Below are positions 47,943 through 56,594 of a stretch of 64,000 bases of DNA, piece by piece. The stretch comes from Pontibacter mangrovi (GTDB lineage Bacteria; Bacteroidota; Bacteroidia; Cytophagales; Hymenobacteraceae): positions 434,001-498,000 of the forward strand of contig NZ_VFRQ01000002.1 in the NCBI RefSeq assembly GCF_006385705.1, written 5' to 3'. The notes beneath the pieces were generated by a model, which saw nothing but the letters and a program-made list of their open reading frames with translations, did not search any database and had not been told where the DNA came from. Position 1 is the stretch's first letter; each line of letters starts with the position of its first letter. A program made the translations under genes and the position numbers.

Positions 47943-49217
47943 TTAATAAGCGAAAAGCGGATATTCCTGCATCCAGTTGTTGATATCGCTGCGCACGCTC
48001 TTTATTTTACTCTCATCGCCATGGTTAGCCAGCACCGTGTCGATGTATGACACGATACGCTCCATATCCTGCTCTTTTAGGCCGCGGGTTGTAATGGCTG
48101 CCGTGCCCACACGCATGCCCGAGGTAACGAATGGCGACTTGTCATCAAACGGCACCATGTTTTTGTTGATGGTGATGTCTGCCTGCACCAGGGTATTCTC
48201 GGCCAACTTGCCAGTTATACCTTTAGAACGCAGGTCAATCAGCATCATGTGGTTGTCTGTGCCACCGGAGATGATGTCGTAGCCGCGCTGCAGGAACGCC
48301 TTAGCCATTGCCTGTGCATTTTGCTGCACCTGCTTCACGTAGCCCAGGTAATCATCAGACAGAGCCTCAAAGTATGCTACCGCCTTCGCTGCGATCACGT
48401 GCTCCAGCGGCCCGCCCTGCGTACCCGGGAAAACGGCGCCGTCCAGCAGCGATGACATCATGCGTATTTCACCTTTAGGCGTTTTCAGCCCGAATGGGTT
48501 CTCAAAATCCTTGCCCATCATGATCATGCCGCCCCGTGGGCCACGCAACGTTTTGTGCGTCGTGGTGGTTACGATATGGCAATGCTCAAACGGGTTGTTC
48601 AGCAGGCCGCGCGCGATAAGTCCGGAAGGGTGGGAGATATCGGCCAGCAACAGAGCGCCAACCTCATCAGCAGCCTGACGCAGCTTTTTATAGTCCCAGT
48701 CGCGGCTGTAGGCAGAGGCGCCGCAGATAATGAGCTTTGGCTGCTCGCGGCGAGCCGTTTCTACTACTTTATCAAAATCGATTAACCCTGTTTCCTGCTC
48801 TACGCCATAGAAAGAAGGGTTATATAGTTTACCTGAGAAGTTTACAGGCGAGCCATGCGTCAGGTGGCCACCGTGCGACAGGTCGAAACCCAATATCTTA
48901 TCTCCCGGCTGCAGCACCGCCAGCATCACCGCTGCGTTTGCCTGCGCGCCGGAGTGTGGCTGCACGTTTACCCACTCCACTCCAAAAAGCTCCTTTGCCC
49001 GGTTAATAGCCAGCATCTCCGACTGGTCTACCACCTCACAGCCACCGTAGTAGCGCTTGCCCGGCAGCCCTTCGGCATACTTGTTCGTCATTACGCTGCC
49101 CATGGCCTGCATTACCTGCTCCGACACAAAGTTCTCAGAGGCAATCAGCTCAATGCCATGCATTTGGCGGGCTTTTTCTTTAGCAATCAGGTCAAATATG
49201 GCTGTATCTTTTTGCAT
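47943..49217 (-). CDS. glyA: serine hydroxymethyltransferase
   Basis: PLP enzyme that interconverts serine and glycine and produces 5,10-methylenetetrahydrofolate, the substrate of MetF encoded earlier in the window. The 424-residue protein has [11 protein letters not shown], the PLP loop [15 protein letters not shown] with Lys222 forming the Schiff base, and NKNMVPFD in the C-terminal domain. First gene of the glyA-tatC-rpiB operon; the tatC start lies 33 nt after the stop. Confidence 0.97.
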
Positions 49218-49344
49218 TCGTTCTGGTTGGATTTAGTGAGCGCTCAAAATTAAAGTATGCGCCGGAATAAACCAATGTTTCAGAAGTTTATATACGAAGC
49301 AGGCCCTGCAGCTAGATTTCCTGTTCTTTGCGTTTTTCAGATTT

Positions 49345-49381
49345 AAAAACAAAGGCCCGGTACTATTGCACCGGGCCTTTG
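49345..49381 (-). terminator. Terminator of the giant IPT/TIG protein gene
   Basis: Stem CAAAGGCCCGGT (49350-49361) with ACCGGGCCTTTG (49370-49381), followed on the minus strand by a U-rich run (49345-49349). Confidence 0.88.
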
Positions 49382-49403
49382 TAGTATAGCTTCTATCTAC
49401 TTG

Positions 49404-52400
49404 CTATTCTTTTATCACTTTCACTTGTGAGGTTTGTCCGTTTAGCTCTACCGTCAGCACATACATGCCTTTGGTTATCTTGTCGTAAACAGGCAGCTGC
49501 ACTTCGTTTTCTCCCTCTTCCAACTCCAGGCTTGCTCTGTACACACGCTGGCCAGTGATGCTGTGCAGCGTCAGGGTTGCCTTTCCGCTAACTTCGGCTG
49601 TAATGTATACTTTAGAGTTAAAGTTGATCGGGTTAGGCGCTACTAGTAGCTTCTGTACCAGCTCCAGCGCCTTCACGTTTATGGCAATCACTTTGCTGTA
49701 GTCAGTCGTTCCGTCCAGGTCTACCTGCTTCAGTCGGAAATAGATGGTGCCGCTGGCATTGCCGAGTTTGTGCGTAAACGTATAATCTGTTCTGAGCACG
49801 CTGTTGGTCACTTTGCTTTCTACCACACCTATCTTCTCGAAGCCCTGTTTCGGATCTGTGGACATCTCAACTTCGAAGTGCGAGTTGTTTTCCTCAGAGG
49901 CTGTTACCCATCGCAGCACCACGTTGCGCTTCTGCAGCGCCGCATCAAATGACATCAGCTCTACTGGCAGCGGTGTAATTATAGAGTTCAGGGCTACTGT
50001 TGATCTATACACTGAATAGCTGCTGTTGGTAATCGTGCCGCTCAGGTTTGTGGCAACGTCTTCTGCCGGCTGTGCCCTTACGTACACTATTGTTTCTGCA
50101 ACTGTTCCATTTCCATCGGTAGTCAGCGCTGTCACTGTCTTAGCCCAGGTTGTGGTATCAGTCGAGTCCATTGTAATATAGTAGTAGTCGGTCTTAGACG
50201 CCACTGCAATGTTCAGGTTTTCCCCTACTGGCAGGTACTGAGCGCTTACTGTATAAGATTGCGCTGCTGAATTTTCTCCGGCCTTCGCTTTAAAGCTAAG
50301 ACTGTTTGGCGTAACCGTAATGATCGGCTGCTGGATGTATAGCAGTTCTGAGCTTACTTCGTTTGCCTCGGCCGCCGTTATGGAAACCGTATTGGTTGTG
50401 GCGGATCTTGGCACCAGCATCTCCAGGGTGTTTACATCACTCTCCAGGAAGCTGGCGGTAATGCTTCCAACTTTTGCTACCCCTATGTCTTGCAACTGAT
50501 AGCCTTTTGCAAATACAGTCTCTTTAATGCGCGCCGGATTACTGCTGGTGATCTCAACGTTATCTGCATCCTCAAAGCGCACGATTACCGGGCTTGTCAC
50601 CTCAAAGGCTCCTGCTTCTGTCGTATTTGCTGCGTTTGTTAAAGTCACAGTTCCAGAAATAGCATCGTCTGGCACCGTTACCTTCACCCAGGTACCGCCT
50701 ACCTCATCGTAGCTTGTTACTGTGGCAGCCAGGTCAATCTTGTCTGCGTCTGCTGCCGGGATAGTTGCGCCGCCGTGTCCTTTAAAGTATACTTCCAGCG
50801 CACCATCTACGTCCCACAGGTTCTCACCTGAAATGGTTACTTCCGTTCCTTTCGGTCCTGATGCAGGGCTAAAGGAGCTATATACTGGCGCGTATACTAC
50901 TCTGAAGCTTTCGTTACTTGTTACTGTAGTTCCACCATTATATGGCGTAGTTACTGCAATTTGGCCTGCAAGCGCGTCATTTGGTACCGTCACCTGAATT
51001 TCTGTCGGCGACAGCACTGTGTATGTAGCTGGTATTGTTGATGCGCTTCCAGTAAATGCAACAGCAGTAGCCTCATCGAAGTTGGTACCCGTAATTGTAA
51101 ACGTTGTGCCTACCACACCGCCGCTTACTGAGAAACCAGTAATGGTCGGCGCGCCGATGATGGTCAGCGTTTGCGTTGACTCGCCGGTGCCGCTTAGGCT
51201 TGACACTCTTACGTTACCAGTTACAGCTCCAGCCGGTACGTTCACGGTTACTATATCCGTTCCTTCTTCAGTGGTGCTATAAGTCGCGCTGGAGATAGTG
51301 CCATTTATACGATTACCATTTGTGCTAGCGAATGTGACTGAAGGAGCAGTTCTTCTTACTTCGCCGCCTGATCTTGTTTGCTGATAATATTCATCTAATC
51401 TAGTACCTGATATAGTGACAGTGTTTACACCAGCGTATACTCTATTTTTATTAAGGTTAGAGACTAAAGGCTTATATACTGTTAGAGCATAGGAATCGGT
51501 TGAACCACTTTGTGTGGTAATTGTTAAAGCATTAGACGTCGTAACATCCACAACTGGAGCTATAAAAGCTAGCGATGTTTCACTAACAATATCAACATCA
51601 TTCAAAGGAATATCTATTCCTCCGTAATTGACAGTTATTGGCTCTATATAGTTTGTACCAGTTACATCAACCCATTCACCTGCATAAACAGCCGTTGGAT
51701 TTACAGATGAGATAGTAGGCTTCAGAATCTCGATTGCCACTGGATTACTTATTCCACTACCGGATGCTACTGTCATTGTGCCCGTTCTCGCAGTAGATGG
51801 AATCACAACCGTTACTTCCGTATCAGAATAGCTTCCCTCTGCCGGTGTAGCTGTTGCAACAGAACCTTCATTCCCATGAAATGTTACAGTCGGCGCTTTC
51901 AATTCCACACTAGATGTGGTTCCGTTATAGTATGAGCTTAGATTCTGACCTGTAATCGTTAGAACTGTACTGCCTGCATACCCTTTAGCTGTACCTTCCT
52001 CTGAAGTTAAGCTTATGATGTTTGGCTCAATAACTGTGTAGTTATCTTCGCTGGTACCTTTACCGGCAGGGGTTGTTACTACTATTGGACCTGTTCCGGC
52101 GTCAAATGGTGCTTTTACAGTTACAGTTTGGTACCCGGTAAAGTTTCCGGTTCCGTCTTCCAATTCGTCTATAACAATCCCTATGTTTGCAACAGGCCTT
52201 CCATTGAATGTTATTTCGCTGGCATTTTCTAAGTAGCGGCCTCTGATCGTTACCTGCTGGTTTGCATAGCTAGTAGTTGGCTCAAATGTAATATCAGTAG
52301 GAGCTGGCACTACAAAGTCTGCTTCGCTGGTAGCGGTACCACCTGCCGCTGTTACCTGTATTTTACCTGTAACAGCTTCGGTTGGCACAGGCACCATAAA

Positions 52401-55400
52401 CTCTGTAGAAACTGTCGCCAGGTCCACAGCTGTCAGGTTTGCATCATACTCGTCACCTTCTGCCTCTGTTCCCAGGAAGGTTACTTTAGACAAGCCCTGG
52501 AAATTTTCACCTGTAATGGTTACCAGGGTATTAGCTACTCCCTCCGTTGGGTCGAAAGAAGTAATAATTGGGGCAGGGAAAACAGTGAAGTCTGCTTCTG
52601 TTGTGAAAACAGTTTCATTACCCTCTACCAGGCTGAGTTTGCCTGTTGTAGCACCCACCGGCACGATTGCTGTGATAGTGTTATCTGGGTTCAGCGTAAA
52701 CTCTGCTGCTGTACCGTTAAACTGCACGCCCTCTACCTGGTTCAGGAACCAGCCAGTAAGCACTACTTCGTCACCTACTTTGCCTTGTGTTGGGCTGAAG
52801 CTGGTGATCTCCGGCACCGTCACTACCTCATAGCTCTCAGTACTAGGTTCGCTGGTACCTGCGGCATTGGTTACCATTAACGGACCTGTTACAGCACCGG
52901 TAGGCACTGTGGCTGTAATCTGTGTAGGAGAGTTCATGTCGAACGTTGCAGCTACTACCTCATCTCCTGTTCCTGTGCCCAGGAACGTAACCACAATGCC
53001 TTCACCGATAAACTCTGTCCCGGTAATTACCACCTGGTCACCTACTTTGCCTTTAACAGGGTCTATGTCCGTAATGGTTGGAGTCTGGATGATGGTGAAG
53101 TTTTCTTCGCTGCTGCCAGAACCTTCCGCATTTGTTATTGTGATAACCCCTGTAGTCGCGTCGATTGGCACCTGCACCGTCAGCTCTGCATCTGATACTA
53201 CATTAAAACCGCCTGGATTCGTGTCTGCGTCGTAGGCAGTTGTTATTGGAGCACTGTCGCCGAAAGTCACGGCTGTAGTACCCGTAAAGTTGTAGCCTGT
53301 GATAGTTACGGTGTTGGCGGCAACTCCCAGCACCGGGTCAAAGCTCTCGATAACCGGGATCAGGATAACGGTATAGGAATCTGTCGTAGTAACAGAACCT
53401 GCAGGGTTCGTGATCTGAAGCGGACCTGTTACTGCTCCGTCCGGCACGGTAACCAGAAGCTCTGTGTCGCTGGAGGCGGAGAAGACCGTTGCTGGCACTT
53501 CCGCACCGTCGGCACCCGGGAAAACAACTTCGCTTACATACTTCAGGTTCTCACCGGTAATGGTGATTTGTCTTCCAAGAGGACCTTCTGTAGGATCCAT
53601 GCTGGTATAAACCGGCGCTTGCACTACTTCAAATGGCCCGTTCCAGGTGGCAGTTCCGCCTTGTGTTTTTACAGTTACGGCACCTGTTGTAGCTCCTGTC
53701 GGAATGTTAAATGTAATCGCTGTGCCTTCAGGGCTAACCGTAAATTCTGTCGCCGCTGCGGTAAGCGTAACGCCGCCGAATACCACTTCCGTAGCTGTTC
53801 CGAAGTTCTCACCTGTAATCGTGATTTCGTCTCCTACAATACCATAGGTTCTTGCATCTGCTACTTCCAGCGCATCCTGTGTGTTGGTAACGCTGGTAAT
53901 AACCGGTGCCGGCACAAAGGTAAAGACTTCATCACTTGTGTCTTCTTTTCCCTCCGGCGCTACTACTTGTATCTTGCCTGTGCTGGCATCAGCCGGCACG
54001 GCTACTGTCAGTTGGTCATCTGTGGCAGGTATAGCCGTAACTGCTACTGTTCTGTCATCTGTTGCACCTTCACTATCTCCCAGGAACACCACCTGCGTTA
54101 CGCCCGATAGGTTTGTGCCTGTAATGGTAAGGGTCATGTTAGGGCCAGCGGCAGTAGGGGCAATGCCTGTAATAGTAGGAGCCGGAACATTAAACATTAT
54201 GTCGCTTTGCCCGTTGCCTGCAGGGGCTTTCACGGTAATATAGCCGGTGCCGGCGCCAAGTGGCACTGTAGTAGCGATGTTATTATCTGTAATGGTGAAT
54301 TGCGCCTCTACGCCGTTAAAGTATACTTTTGTAACAGAGGCCAGGTAATTACCTTGCAAGGTTACAGAGGTACCCACTGGGCCACCTTCACTCGGTAAAA
54401 ATGCTGTAATGGTTGGCGCCAGCACATCAAAGCTTGTTTCGCTTTCGTCGGAGCCGGCAGGGGTAACTACTGTAAGTTTGCCATCGGTGGCGGCTGCAGG
54501 CACGGCTACGGTAATTTCTGTGTCTGTTACAGAGGTTGGCGTGGCTGCTACACCGTTAAATGCTACGCTCGTTGCGCCGGTAAAATACTGGCCCGTAATG
54601 GTGATAACATCGCCGGCGCCACCTGCGGCAGGCATGAAGCCTGAAATAACAGGAGCTGGCACTACAAATTCCGTGGCAGAAGTCGCCTCATCGCCATATG
54701 GCGTAACCAGTTTGATAAAACCAGTAGAAGCGCCGGTTGGCACGGTTGTCGTAATTTCGGTGCCCGCCGTATTTACAGTAAAAGTATTTTGCAGCACATC
54801 TCCGAAGTATACTTCTGAAACACCGTTAAAAATGTTACCTGTGATGGTAACCGGTGTGCCCGGCACTCCCTGGTCTGGCGTGAAGCCTGAAATCTCTGGA
54901 GCCTGCGTTACCTCAATGGCATCCAAGAACGCATACGCATTCGTTACGCTGCTCAAGGAGAACTTAACGTCTGTGGCATTTCCTGGCAGATACACACTAT
55001 CGCGGATAACCTCAAGTGTCAGTGCATTTGAATTCCCTGAGGTATAGGTGGCGCCGTTATCGGTGCTGTATTGCACCTGCATTGTTGCATTGCCCCCGCG
55101 GGTAGTAGACAACTCTGCACTGTAGCTTACCTTAAAGCCTGTTGCCAAGGTCCCATCAGCGTTTCTCAGCTTTATGTTTACAAAAGCCGTCGTTGTTCTG
55201 AGCTGTGCGGAGCCGCCACTGCCGTCAGTCTCCAGGTCTGCACCGTCGATGCTCAGGCCGGAGGTTGTGACATCCGCGGCCGTATTGTTGCGCCAGGGAC
55301 CGTCGTAAGTTTTGGTTGTTTGCGCAAAGCTGAGGGAGACTATCCCAAGCAGGAAAACACACTGCAACAGCAGTGACCGGAGGAATCGTGTAAAAGGGGG

Positions 55401-55418
55401 AGCGTAGAGTTGTGCCAT
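49404..55418 (-). CDS. Giant IPT/TIG-repeat surface protein exported by T9SS
   Basis: A 2004-residue exported protein with a signal peptide (FLRSLLLQCVFLLGIVSLSFAQ). After an N-terminal beta-sandwich (about 35-170), about 17 IPT/TIG immunoglobulin-like units of 80-95 residues follow, each beginning with a motif like AP-x-I-x-x-F-x-P-x-x-G and containing ITGxNF (units start at APEISGFTPDQG, APVISGFMPAAG, APTITAFLPSEG and so on to APVYSSFSPASG). A distinct beta domain (QPIITVTPNSLSFKAKAG) and the T9SS sorting tail (LVAPNPINFNSKVYITAEVSG...KGMYVLTVELNG) close it. Likely an adhesin or cell-surface filament. Units 12-14 are encoded in AT-richer DNA, a sign of mosaic ancestry. Confidence 0.93.
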   Translation of the reverse strand: MAQLYAPPFTRFLRSLLLQCVFLLGIVSLSFAQTTKTYDGPWRNNTAADVTTSGLSIDGADLETDGSGGSAQLRTTTAFVNIKLRNADGTLATGFKVSYSAELSTTRGGNATMQVQYSTDNGATYTSGNSNALTLEVIRDSVYLPGNATDVKFSLSSVTNAYAFLDAIEVTQAPEISGFTPDQGVPGTPVTITGNIFNGVSEVYFGDVLQNTFTVNTAGTEITTTVPTGASTGFIKLVTPYGDEATSATEFVVPAPVISGFMPAAGGAGDVITITGQYFTGATSVAFNGVAATPTSVTDTEITVAVPAAATDGKLTVVTPAGSDESETSFDVLAPTITAFLPSEGGPVGTSVTLQGNYLASVTKVYFNGVEAQFTITDNNIATTVPLGAGTGYITVKAPAGNGQSDIMFNVPAPTITGIAPTAAGPNMTLTITGTNLSGVTQVVFLGDSEGATDDRTVAVTAIPATDDQLTVAVPADASTGKIQVVAPEGKEDTSDEVFTFVPAPVITSVTNTQDALEVADARTYGIVGDEITITGENFGTATEVVFGGVTLTAAATEFTVSPEGTAITFNIPTGATTGAVTVKTQGGTATWNGPFEVVQAPVYTSMDPTEGPLGRQITITGENLKYVSEVVFPGADGAEVPATVFSASSDTELLVTVPDGAVTGPLQITNPAGSVTTTDSYTVILIPVIESFDPVLGVAANTVTITGYNFTGTTAVTFGDSAPITTAYDADTNPGGFNVVSDAELTVQVPIDATTGVITITNAEGSGSSEENFTIIQTPTITDIDPVKGKVGDQVVITGTEFIGEGIVVTFLGTGTGDEVVAATFDMNSPTQITATVPTGAVTGPLMVTNAAGTSEPSTESYEVVTVPEITSFSPTQGKVGDEVVLTGWFLNQVEGVQFNGTAAEFTLNPDNTITAIVPVGATTGKLSLVEGNETVFTTEADFTVFPAPIITSFDPTEGVANTLVTITGENFQGLSKVTFLGTEAEGDEYDANLTAVDLATVSTEFMVPVPTEAVTGKIQVTAAGGTATSEADFVVPAPTDITFEPTTSYANQQVTIRGRYLENASEITFNGRPVANIGIVIDELEDGTGNFTGYQTVTVKAPFDAGTGPIVVTTPAGKGTSEDNYTVIEPNIISLTSEEGTAKGYAGSTVLTITGQNLSSYYNGTTSSVELKAPTVTFHGNEGSVATATPAEGSYSDTEVTVVIPSTARTGTMTVASGSGISNPVAIEILKPTISSVNPTAVYAGEWVDVTGTNYIEPITVNYGGIDIPLNDVDIVSETSLAFIAPVVDVTTSNALTITTQSGSTDSYALTVYKPLVSNLNKNRVYAGVNTVTISGTRLDEYYQQTRSGGEVRRTAPSVTFASTNGNRINGTISSATYSTTEEGTDIVTVNVPAGAVTGNVRVSSLSGTGESTQTLTIIGAPTITGFSVSGGVVGTTFTITGTNFDEATAVAFTGSASTIPATYTVLSPTEIQVTVPNDALAGQIAVTTPYNGGTTVTSNESFRVVYAPVYSSFSPASGPKGTEVTISGENLWDVDGALEVYFKGHGGATIPAADADKIDLAATVTSYDEVGGTWVKVTVPDDAISGTVTLTNAANTTEAGAFEVTSPVIVRFEDADNVEITSSNPARIKETVFAKGYQLQDIGVAKVGSITASFLESDVNTLEMLVPRSATTNTVSITAAEANEVSSELLYIQQPIITVTPNSLSFKAKAGENSAAQSYTVSAQYLPVGENLNIAVASKTDYYYITMDSTDTTTWAKTVTALTTDGNGTVAETIVYVRAQPAEDVATNLSGTITNSSYSVYRSTVALNSIITPLPVELMSFDAALQKRNVVLRWVTASEENNSHFEVEMSTDPKQGFEKIGVVESKVTNSVLRTDYTFTHKLGNASGTIYFRLKQVDLDGTTDYSKVIAINVKALELVQKLLVAPNPINFNSKVYITAEVSGKATLTLHSITGQRVYRASLELEEGENEVQLPVYDKITKGMYVLTVELNGQTSQVKVIKE

Positions 55419-55857
55419 AGCTTAAGTGTAATAATATAATAAAATTTTCCTGTGCTATTTTAAATGATTCGTAATTGCCACAAAATAAGATAATTTATCT
55501 ATCATTTGGGCAATTTAGTTATCTAATTTTTAATCTAATTTCCTGAATATGCCTGGAAATATGTATATAAGCTTTTTTTGAATATATAGATGTGACACTA
55601 TATTAGTTATTGTATTCTGCGGCAGAAACAAAGCTGGGGGGCCTTCATCTTTTTTAACTCTCCTCCTGCTTCTTAACATTGGATAACAATTCAGTCCTAT
55701 TTTATTGTTTGAGACACTTACGATACCATCCTAAATGAGTTCAATCTTAGTAAAAATAAAAAAATACAAAGTTTACATACACTAACTGAAAAATAATCCA
55801 AAAAACGCTGTTACACCATAAACACCTGTTAATGAGGAATATGTGCAAAGCGCAACC
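55419..55857. other. AT-rich region upstream of the giant surface protein gene
   Basis: About 440 nt, noticeably AT-rich; no gene or clear promoter recognised. It should hold the promoter of the 2004-residue protein gene. Confidence 0.4.
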
Positions 55858-56553
55858 TTACCCTTTGCGGGCAACCGGGTAAGGCCTGTCGATGTTGGGC
55901 TGCACAAAGAGCTCCTGCGCATCCAGGTCTAAAGCTACGAGGTTGCCGTAGGCGGCATTTTTGTAGTAGACACACCCGGCGTCCAGGTTCAGTTTCTGGC
56001 TTTTGTGCGTTACGGCTTTCTTAATGGCATGCAGGGGGGTGGGGGTATGGCCGTGCAGCAGCTTCTTGTTCCCAAGGCGCTCCCAATCAGGTTTGTAATC
56101 CCGGATGTTGAGCATGGCCTCTTTGTCCGAAAAAAGGTCGTCTTGGTTAAAGTCGAAGCCTGCGTGTACCAGGTAAGTATCCGGCAGCTCCAGGTAATAG
56201 GAAAGGCTTTTCAGGAAACTCACATACTTTTCAGGAAGGTGCTGCACGCTGCTTATCTTAAAGCTTTCCAGCAGCAGCTCTTGTTCGGTGGGGGTAAGGC
56301 TAAGGTGCTTGGGCCCTTTTGTTATACCTTTCAGCAGCATCTGGTCGTGGTTGCCGCGCAGGCAGTGCACCTGGTACTTCTGCTTTTGCAGATGAAGTAT
56401 AAAATCCAGCACCTCTTTTGAGTCGGGGCCTTTGTTCACCAGGTCGCCGAGCAGGTATAGTTCATCTTTTTTGGTAAGCCGAAGCTGATCGTGCACCATG
56501 GCTTTCAGGGTTTGGGCACAGCCATGTATGTCTGTAAGGGCGTAGCGGGGCAT
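55858..56553 (-). CDS. Metallophosphoesterase / serine-threonine protein phosphatase
   Basis: A 231-residue calcineurin-like phosphatase starting at MPRYALTDIHGCAQTL. The metal motifs are all visible: DIHGC (Asp-x-His), LLGDLVNKGPDS (GDxVxxG), LRGNHDQMLL (GNH[DE]) and YLVHAGFDF (a histidine metal ligand), with a final LNLDAGCVY that matches the diadenosine tetraphosphatase or PrpA-like group. Substrate unknown. A TATCTTTG box lies 33 nt upstream. Confidence 0.9.
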   Translation of the reverse strand: MPRYALTDIHGCAQTLKAMVHDQLRLTKKDELYLLGDLVNKGPDSKEVLDFILHLQKQKYQVHCLRGNHDQMLLKGITKGPKHLSLTPTEQELLLESFKISSVQHLPEKYVSFLKSLSYYLELPDTYLVHAGFDFNQDDLFSDKEAMLNIRDYKPDWERLGNKKLLHGHTPTPLHAIKKAVTHKSQKLNLDAGCVYYKNAAYGNLVALDLDAQELFVQPNIDRPYPVARKG

Positions 56554-56586
56554 ATAGTAATGTATGGCACAGCCTAAGTGGGCAGG

Positions 56587-56594
56587 CAAAGATA
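56587..56594 (-). promoter_or_regulatory. Putative -7 box (TATCTTTG) of the phosphatase gene
   Basis: Minus-strand TATCTTTG fits TAnnTTTG, 33 nt before the ATG. Confidence 0.45.

Follow-up and report, generated by a model that had tools for sequence, protein, structure and literature searches.

An AT-rich stretch within a giant IPT/TIG repeat gene of Pontibacter mangrovi and its orthologues at the slot before glyA

The repeat gene and its product

The window (the whole stretch of DNA analysed, 64,000 nucleotides) carries at 49,404–55,418, on the minus strand, an open reading frame for a 2004-residue protein in which Pfam and NCBIfam recognize IPT/TIG repeat units and a T9SS type A sorting domain. 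The gene occupies a slot (49,218–55,857 in the window; loci L009–L018, L102–L110 and L141–L171) that is marked by its conserved downstream neighbour glyA (47,943–49,217, minus strand; name read from the sequence) and bordered on the other side by an open reading frame at 55,858–56,589, minus strand, which has a similar frame of 230–231 residues in relatives. The Pfam TIG family (PF01833) matches 14 stretches of the protein (E 3.8e-68; 225.9 bits against a curated cut-off of 20.9), and the NCBIfam models NF058597, a repeating-domain family, and TIGR04183 both score above their cut-offs, the latter placing the sorting domain at the C-terminus, in residues 1926–2004 (35.8 bits against 23); Pfam Por_Secre_tail, at 24.3, stays below its cut-off of 27. 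Judged by these matches, the protein is a member of both the IPT/TIG repeat kind and the T9SS-sorted kind. It opens with a putative signal peptide at about residues 1–33 (55,320–55,418, minus strand), and it closes with a conserved part, residues 1810–2004 (49,407–49,991, minus strand), which includes the sorting domain and has a high third-position GC (GC3) in all aligned orthologues. The giant protein is probably exported by the T9SS and located at the surface, where its repeats, fold and sorting domain suggest that it most likely forms a long stalk or adhesin. Pontibacter is regarded as free-living.

The genome of the window comprises 4.88 Mb and carries further TIG genes. Direct repeats of at least 24 nt in the 2004-residue gene fall into seven short, diverged families (24–40 nt, copies 60–83% alike), and no sign of recent duplication is found among them. 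Open frames of 120–212 codons lie opposite the repeats on the plus strand (52,867–53,235, 53,568–54,110, 53,881–54,243 and 54,409–55,047); they most likely arise mechanically from the codons of the repeats.

Extent and composition of the AT-rich stretch

The initial annotation had described the repeat units around residues 1120–1370 (51,309–52,061, minus strand) as richer in A and T than their flanks and different in codon use, with reading frame and repeat pattern carried on, and all of this holds. In sliding windows, the check that had been proposed, GC drops clearly to 0.37–0.45 over 51,250–52,299, against about 0.47–0.55 in the flanking parts of the gene, with a minimum of 0.370 at 51,400–51,699. 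Residues 1120–1370 have a GC3 of 0.259, and the remaining repeats one of 0.454 (one-sided Fisher p = 3e-9). If the same amino acids were encoded with the codon preferences of those repeats, GC3 would be 0.468, indicating that codon choice, not amino-acid content, makes the difference in GC3. First-position GC is also down (0.45 against 0.55), and Ser, Tyr, Asn and Arg are enriched. Third-position segment scoring places the statistically best low-GC3 segment at residues 1012–1371 (51,306–52,385, minus strand), where GC3 is 0.28 against 0.49 elsewhere in the gene and the log-likelihood gain reaches 27.8, the maximum of 40 shuffles being 11.3; its right edge, at about residue 1371, is sharp, and its left edge is gradual from about residue 980.

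The contrast is set in a gene that is AT-rich throughout at third positions, as follows from its overall GC3 of 0.45; 237 open reading frames sampled from the same genome average 0.674 (sd 0.101). This sample comprises the window plus 20 stretches, each of 20 kb, partly picked around known TIG and sorting-domain genes and thus not random; in the 40 sampled genes of at least 600 codons, the dip of the 2004-residue gene ranks second, with two others near (the top likelihood gains for internal low-GC3 segments being 37.1, 26.9, 24.3 and 24.0).

Repeat units and predicted fold

The reading frame crosses the AT-rich stretch without a stop, and Ig-like units go on through it, according to the list of open reading frames and the structure model, respectively. 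Three units with hand-drawn boundaries, all on the minus strand, cover it: residues 1132–1233 (51,720–52,025), defined by a Pfam TIG match at 51,768–51,980 together with modelled strands, and residues 1234–1316 (51,471–51,719) and 1317–1423 (51,150–51,470), both defined by modelled strands, with no Pfam match listed. The model, computed from an alignment of 11 of the 15 colinear sequences described below, is confident and all-strand, with Ig-like units (pLDDT 91.9, pTM 0.81). The best Foldseek matches in the PDB include Bacteroides surface glycan-binding proteins (SGBP-B) and plexin IPT3–IPT6, at TM-scores of 0.2–0.3 over the whole chain; a PDB search by sequence gives no match. The AT-rich stretch is thus predicted to consist of IPT/TIG-type units, one of them recognized by sequence and the other two by the model.

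Orthologues carrying the stretch

A protein search of 59 genomes, the window's own included, identifies nine further genes that match over residues 1–2004 at 46–59% identity, and a search with the stretch in 50 genomes of the genus, again with the own one included, adds five more long genes. The resulting 15 genes, counting that of the window (1898–2068 aa), are colinear through the stretch, with 242–253 codons aligned in each, and four more diverged long genes (1926–1949 aa) have 232–236 codons aligned there. The best match overall to the window's gene is that of genome G013, the nearest sampled orthologue being 59% identical. Profile searches of genome contigs return 79 loci with the orthologue alignment, Pontibacter records among them, and 22 stretches, none from relatives, with the single protein.

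The initial annotation had read the block as an insert of exchanged units. If additional repeat units had lately been inserted from a different surface-protein gene, the composition contrast and the unbroken reading frame would be accounted for; the 15 long orthologues, however, all have these units at the corresponding position, their length is nearly constant, and in all of them GC3 is low at this position. Since the stretch is present and colinear in 15 of 15, it is not an insert, and the insertion, ruled out unless all of these genes acquired it independently, is in our view hardly conceivable. Neither is there a source for it in the genomes searched: searched with the stretch at E ≤ 1e-8, the window's genome yields a single match, the gene itself, and the search for donor genes that had been suggested brings up no close donor in the 50 genus genomes (protein) or in 200 family genomes (DNA), own included, with the best-scoring DNA match elsewhere lying in the G014 orthologue (143 bp at 74%) and the others listed being shorter or less alike.

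The low third-position GC is itself a shared property. In residues 1120–1370, GC3 is 0.26–0.37 in all 15 colinear genes and 0.35–0.45 in the four diverged ones, and in the 60-residue windows that start at residues 1081, 1141, 1201, 1261 and 1321 it lies below the mean of the gene in 15, 10, 14, 15 and 14 of the 15, respectively. For the profile correlation and the four-fold-site comparison of the window's gene with its relatives, ten of the 15 colinear genes were used (that of the window and nine others); between the GC3 profile of the window's gene and the average of the nine, r is 0.67, or 0.52 in the repeats only; none of 200 and none of 162 circular shifts, respectively, attain these values, and in the repeat region the correlations with single orthologues are weak (0.06–0.49).

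A low-GC3 zone at a location common to the orthologues might also be expected if a hidden functional element, such as an internal promoter, an RNA, an antisense gene or a translational pause, kept the stretch AT-rich. Against this stand the lack of any Rfam match at gathering scores in 49,000–56,000, the lack of any other open frame of at least 120 aa in 51,300–52,050 besides the gene itself, and the synonymous sites of the stretch, which are no more conserved than elsewhere in the gene, so that such an element appears very improbable.

Taken with the colinear orthologues, the composition data indicate, in our judgement, that the stretch is not an insert but probably a long-standing orthologous segment of a giant Pontibacter surface protein that consists of ordinary IPT/TIG-type units and is probably exported by the T9SS. 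The repeat body would drift toward A and T through fast divergence, weak codon selection, weak GC-biased conversion, or a combination of these, and the conserved ends, with signal peptide and sorting domain, would stay nearer the genomic composition; the middle of the body may then be the part least moved toward that composition. From an AT-rich block alone, an insertion in a repeat gene should not be concluded; orthologues must be compared, and in this case they account for most of what is seen.

The contrast peculiar to the window's gene

What the orthologues share is the level of GC3 and not the contrast. The initial annotation had taken an identical composition in orthologues as an argument against exchange; identity is found for the absolute level (0.26–0.37) but not for the difference between the stretch and the other repeats, which amounts to −0.195 in the window's gene, −0.095 in that of G005 and −0.062 to +0.024 in the 17 other long genes. 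That the dip is far deeper here, with a sharp right edge, counts against reading the stretch as an orthologous trough. The stretch itself (0.259) lies at the low end of the common orthologue range, and the other repeats, at 0.454, mark the upper limit of GC3 among the 15 colinear genes (range 0.304–0.454); the middle therefore stands out by virtue of the rest of the body. Across the 15 genomes, the GC3 of the other repeats tracks the flanking GC (rho 0.54, p 0.04), and that of the stretch has no significant link with it (rho 0.20, p 0.48). Flanking GC is not the full explanation, since three genomes have a flanking GC above that of the window and a lower GC3 in the repeat body. Local GC3 is also related to synonymous sharing when the gene ends are included (rho 0.44, p 0.011), and not significantly so in the repeats alone (rho 0.30, p 0.13).

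A mosaic family of orthologues

Trees and triplet tests cover 15 of the 19 long genes, the four most diverged (G012, G020, G022 and G035) being left out. The segment trees conflict: the G013 gene groups with that of G062 at both ends (support 100), with those of G014 and G021 in residues 1424–1809 (support 95) and with that of G029 in residues 1040–1423 (support 100), where G062 groups with G009, G010 and G059 (support 100). In agreement with this, G013 and G062 have a DNA identity of 0.98 at one end and 0.97 at the other, against 0.53 in residues 301–360. In AU tests, whose p-values look numerically unsteady at large likelihood differences, seven of eight segment data sets reject, at 0.05, every tree from a different, non-overlapping segment; the exception is residues 871–1039, for which the topologies of 175–505, 1040–1423 and 1424–1809 are not rejected. 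The glyA tree, used as a reference, contains several weakly supported nodes and should not be read as a species tree.

The triplet test, in which the triplets are not mutually independent, exceeds all 4000 shuffles in 804 of 1365 cases on DNA, and all shuffles in 725 of 1365 on amino acids, or 291 of 1365 without the ends; in the control on 1200 bases of glyA, it does so in 2 of 1364 when all sites are used and in 0 of 1360 when third positions are. Gene pieces of 400 codons give 1–30 of about 1365 (third positions) and 26–110 of about 1300 (amino acids), and these low numbers imply that much of the mosaic signal lies at a scale above 400 codons. Together, the trees, identities and triplets support a family made mosaic by the exchange of segments between species. 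The exchange between surface-protein genes that the initial annotation had suggested is thereby borne out for the orthologue family, with its conflicting trees and swings of identity, but not for the AT-rich block; for antigenic variation, which had been named as a possible outcome, nothing was found in favour.

Could the stretch have been exchanged?

An exchange affecting the stretch itself would be a homologous replacement, in which a segment of about residues 1010–1450 was received unit for unit from the orthologue of an unsampled, AT-richer, Pontibacter-like organism. Segment exchange is evident between other orthologues, and the uniquely deep dip with its sharp right edge would fit. Synonymous sites gave a further hint: in residues 1120–1370, the four-fold sites of the window's gene agree with those of nine relatives at a rate of 0.325, which is at the chance level (0.318 expected), and in five other regions the agreement is above chance. 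In residues 1151–1400, the synonymous excess of the window's gene is 0.00, below that of every other genome among the 15 (next value 0.02). This hint is weakened by the control with each of the 15 genomes as focal genome; the zone is among the six lowest of 32 windows for synonymous sharing in 10 of the 15, the window's included, and in the window's gene residues 1101–1350 rank fourth lowest, so that low sharing is common there and the idea of a stretch uniquely saturated in this gene loses force.

The breakpoint evidence is similarly divided. On DNA, triplets that take the window's gene as child beat every shuffle in 14 of 91 cases, fewer than for any other of the 15 genomes, and none of the 25 tracts listed has both ends at the stretch. 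Six of the 25 have one end near its left edge, at residues 1022–1025 or 1120–1130, and on amino acids without the gene ends, where two triplets with the window's gene as child pass (tracts 985–1783 and 1026–1665), two further tracts, 1023–1459 and 1026–1447 (G063 as parent), nearly frame the stretch, at 2.36 and 2.34, just below the shuffle maximum of 2.43. All tracts ending near the left edge have G063 or G015 as parent, however, and these two genes are themselves unusually divergent in residues 1236–1423, so that the change behind the tracts may be theirs. Likewise, G013, the best match overall, drops to seventh among the other genomes in the stretch, but this can equally be attributed to G013 and G062, which resemble the G029 gene and the G009 group there. 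With the missing donor in the genus and family genomes added, a replacement seems possible but rather unlikely, and an old orthologous origin of the stretch is preferred. The family as a whole probably evolves partly through segment-wise exchange between species at the fixed slot before glyA.

The slot before glyA across the genus

A protein of 344–2068 aa lies directly before glyA in 46 of the 50 genus genomes (own included), at a gap of 167–449 bp; in the four without the giant protein (G034, G024, G002 and G032), the place directly before glyA is taken by a gene for 230–231 aa that resembles 55,858–56,589. Lengths were counted from the first ATG after a stop and some may be underestimates, as in G007 (555 against a 951-codon open frame); the slot gene of G071 is cut by a contig end. 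Unit counts and slot GC3 refer to the 46 genomes with such a gene, the other four of the 50 being left out. With a profile of 16 units from the window, the slot proteins contain 0–18 units, and the 19 long ones 16–18. The changes in unit number that the initial annotation had proposed to look for between strains, here compared between species, are seen at the slot as a whole, but among the long genes the number stays within 16–18.

In the same 46 genomes, the median GC3 is 0.56 in the last 195 codons and 0.33 in the body, and the tail exceeds the body in 45. Third-position AT-richness marks the whole glyA-upstream locus in Pontibacter. A general rule by which sorting domains have a high GC3 was also considered and is weakened by ten sampled sorting-domain genes of the window's genome, a non-random sample that includes the 2004-residue gene, in which the tail exceeds the body in only seven. 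The C-terminal 195 residues (49,407–49,991 in the window; orthologues in L010–L018) occur in two types that share about 47% identity; within the second, found in six genomes, mean identity is 89%, and other regions average 46–54%.

The slot may be pictured more boldly as the seat of a giant stalk whose conserved ends anchor homologous exchange, so that species would trade IPT/TIG blocks in register while keeping about 17 units, and the AT-rich block of the window would have been traded in from an unsampled species; as a whole, this picture strikes us as distinctly unlikely. The AT-rich stretch remains mostly ordinary. More interest attaches to the mosaic protein tied to the slot, in which the ends are conserved, the middle is mosaic, and length and unit number vary strongly between species. 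It offers a tractable case for the diversification of long surface proteins in environmental bacteria.

Relation to known systems

The Pontibacter protein resembles the IPT/TIG proteins with a T9SS type A sorting domain (PF01833, NF058597 and TIGR04183) in its repeats, its C-terminal sorting domain and its probable signal peptide, and differs in reaching up to about 2000 aa and in being tied to one slot before glyA. Surface proteins of Porphyromonas gingivalis such as Kgp are described as subject to domain rearrangement and allelic exchange (PMC5266723). Both cases concern surface proteins of Bacteroidota with mosaic variants that do not follow the strain tree; the exchange in P. gingivalis is between strains of one species (PMC5266723), whereas in Pontibacter it is between species whose proteins are 45–58% identical to that of the window, with the units in register. 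In their abstract on gene conversion biased toward GC in bacteria, Lassalle et al. (2015) relate whole-gene GC to recombination (PMC4450053). The heterogeneity of composition proposed here for conserved ends against a diverged body might be tied to recombination in a like manner; unlike that whole-gene relation, it lies within one gene, and the link is not significant in the repeats alone. Among the literature matches listed, none deals with the glyA-slot locus of Pontibacter, which does not prove that no such work exists.

Other AT-rich genes of the same genome

Two further genes of the window's genome deserve mention for their composition. A 2169-codon gene (L055, 11,659–18,165), which ends in a sorting domain according to our own profile, has a stronger AT-rich segment in codons 41–370 (GC3 0.31 against 0.56) and ranks above the 2004-residue gene for the dip. 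A 607-codon open reading frame (L053, 14,081–15,901) has a mean GC3 of only 0.28 and is a candidate for a recent arrival.
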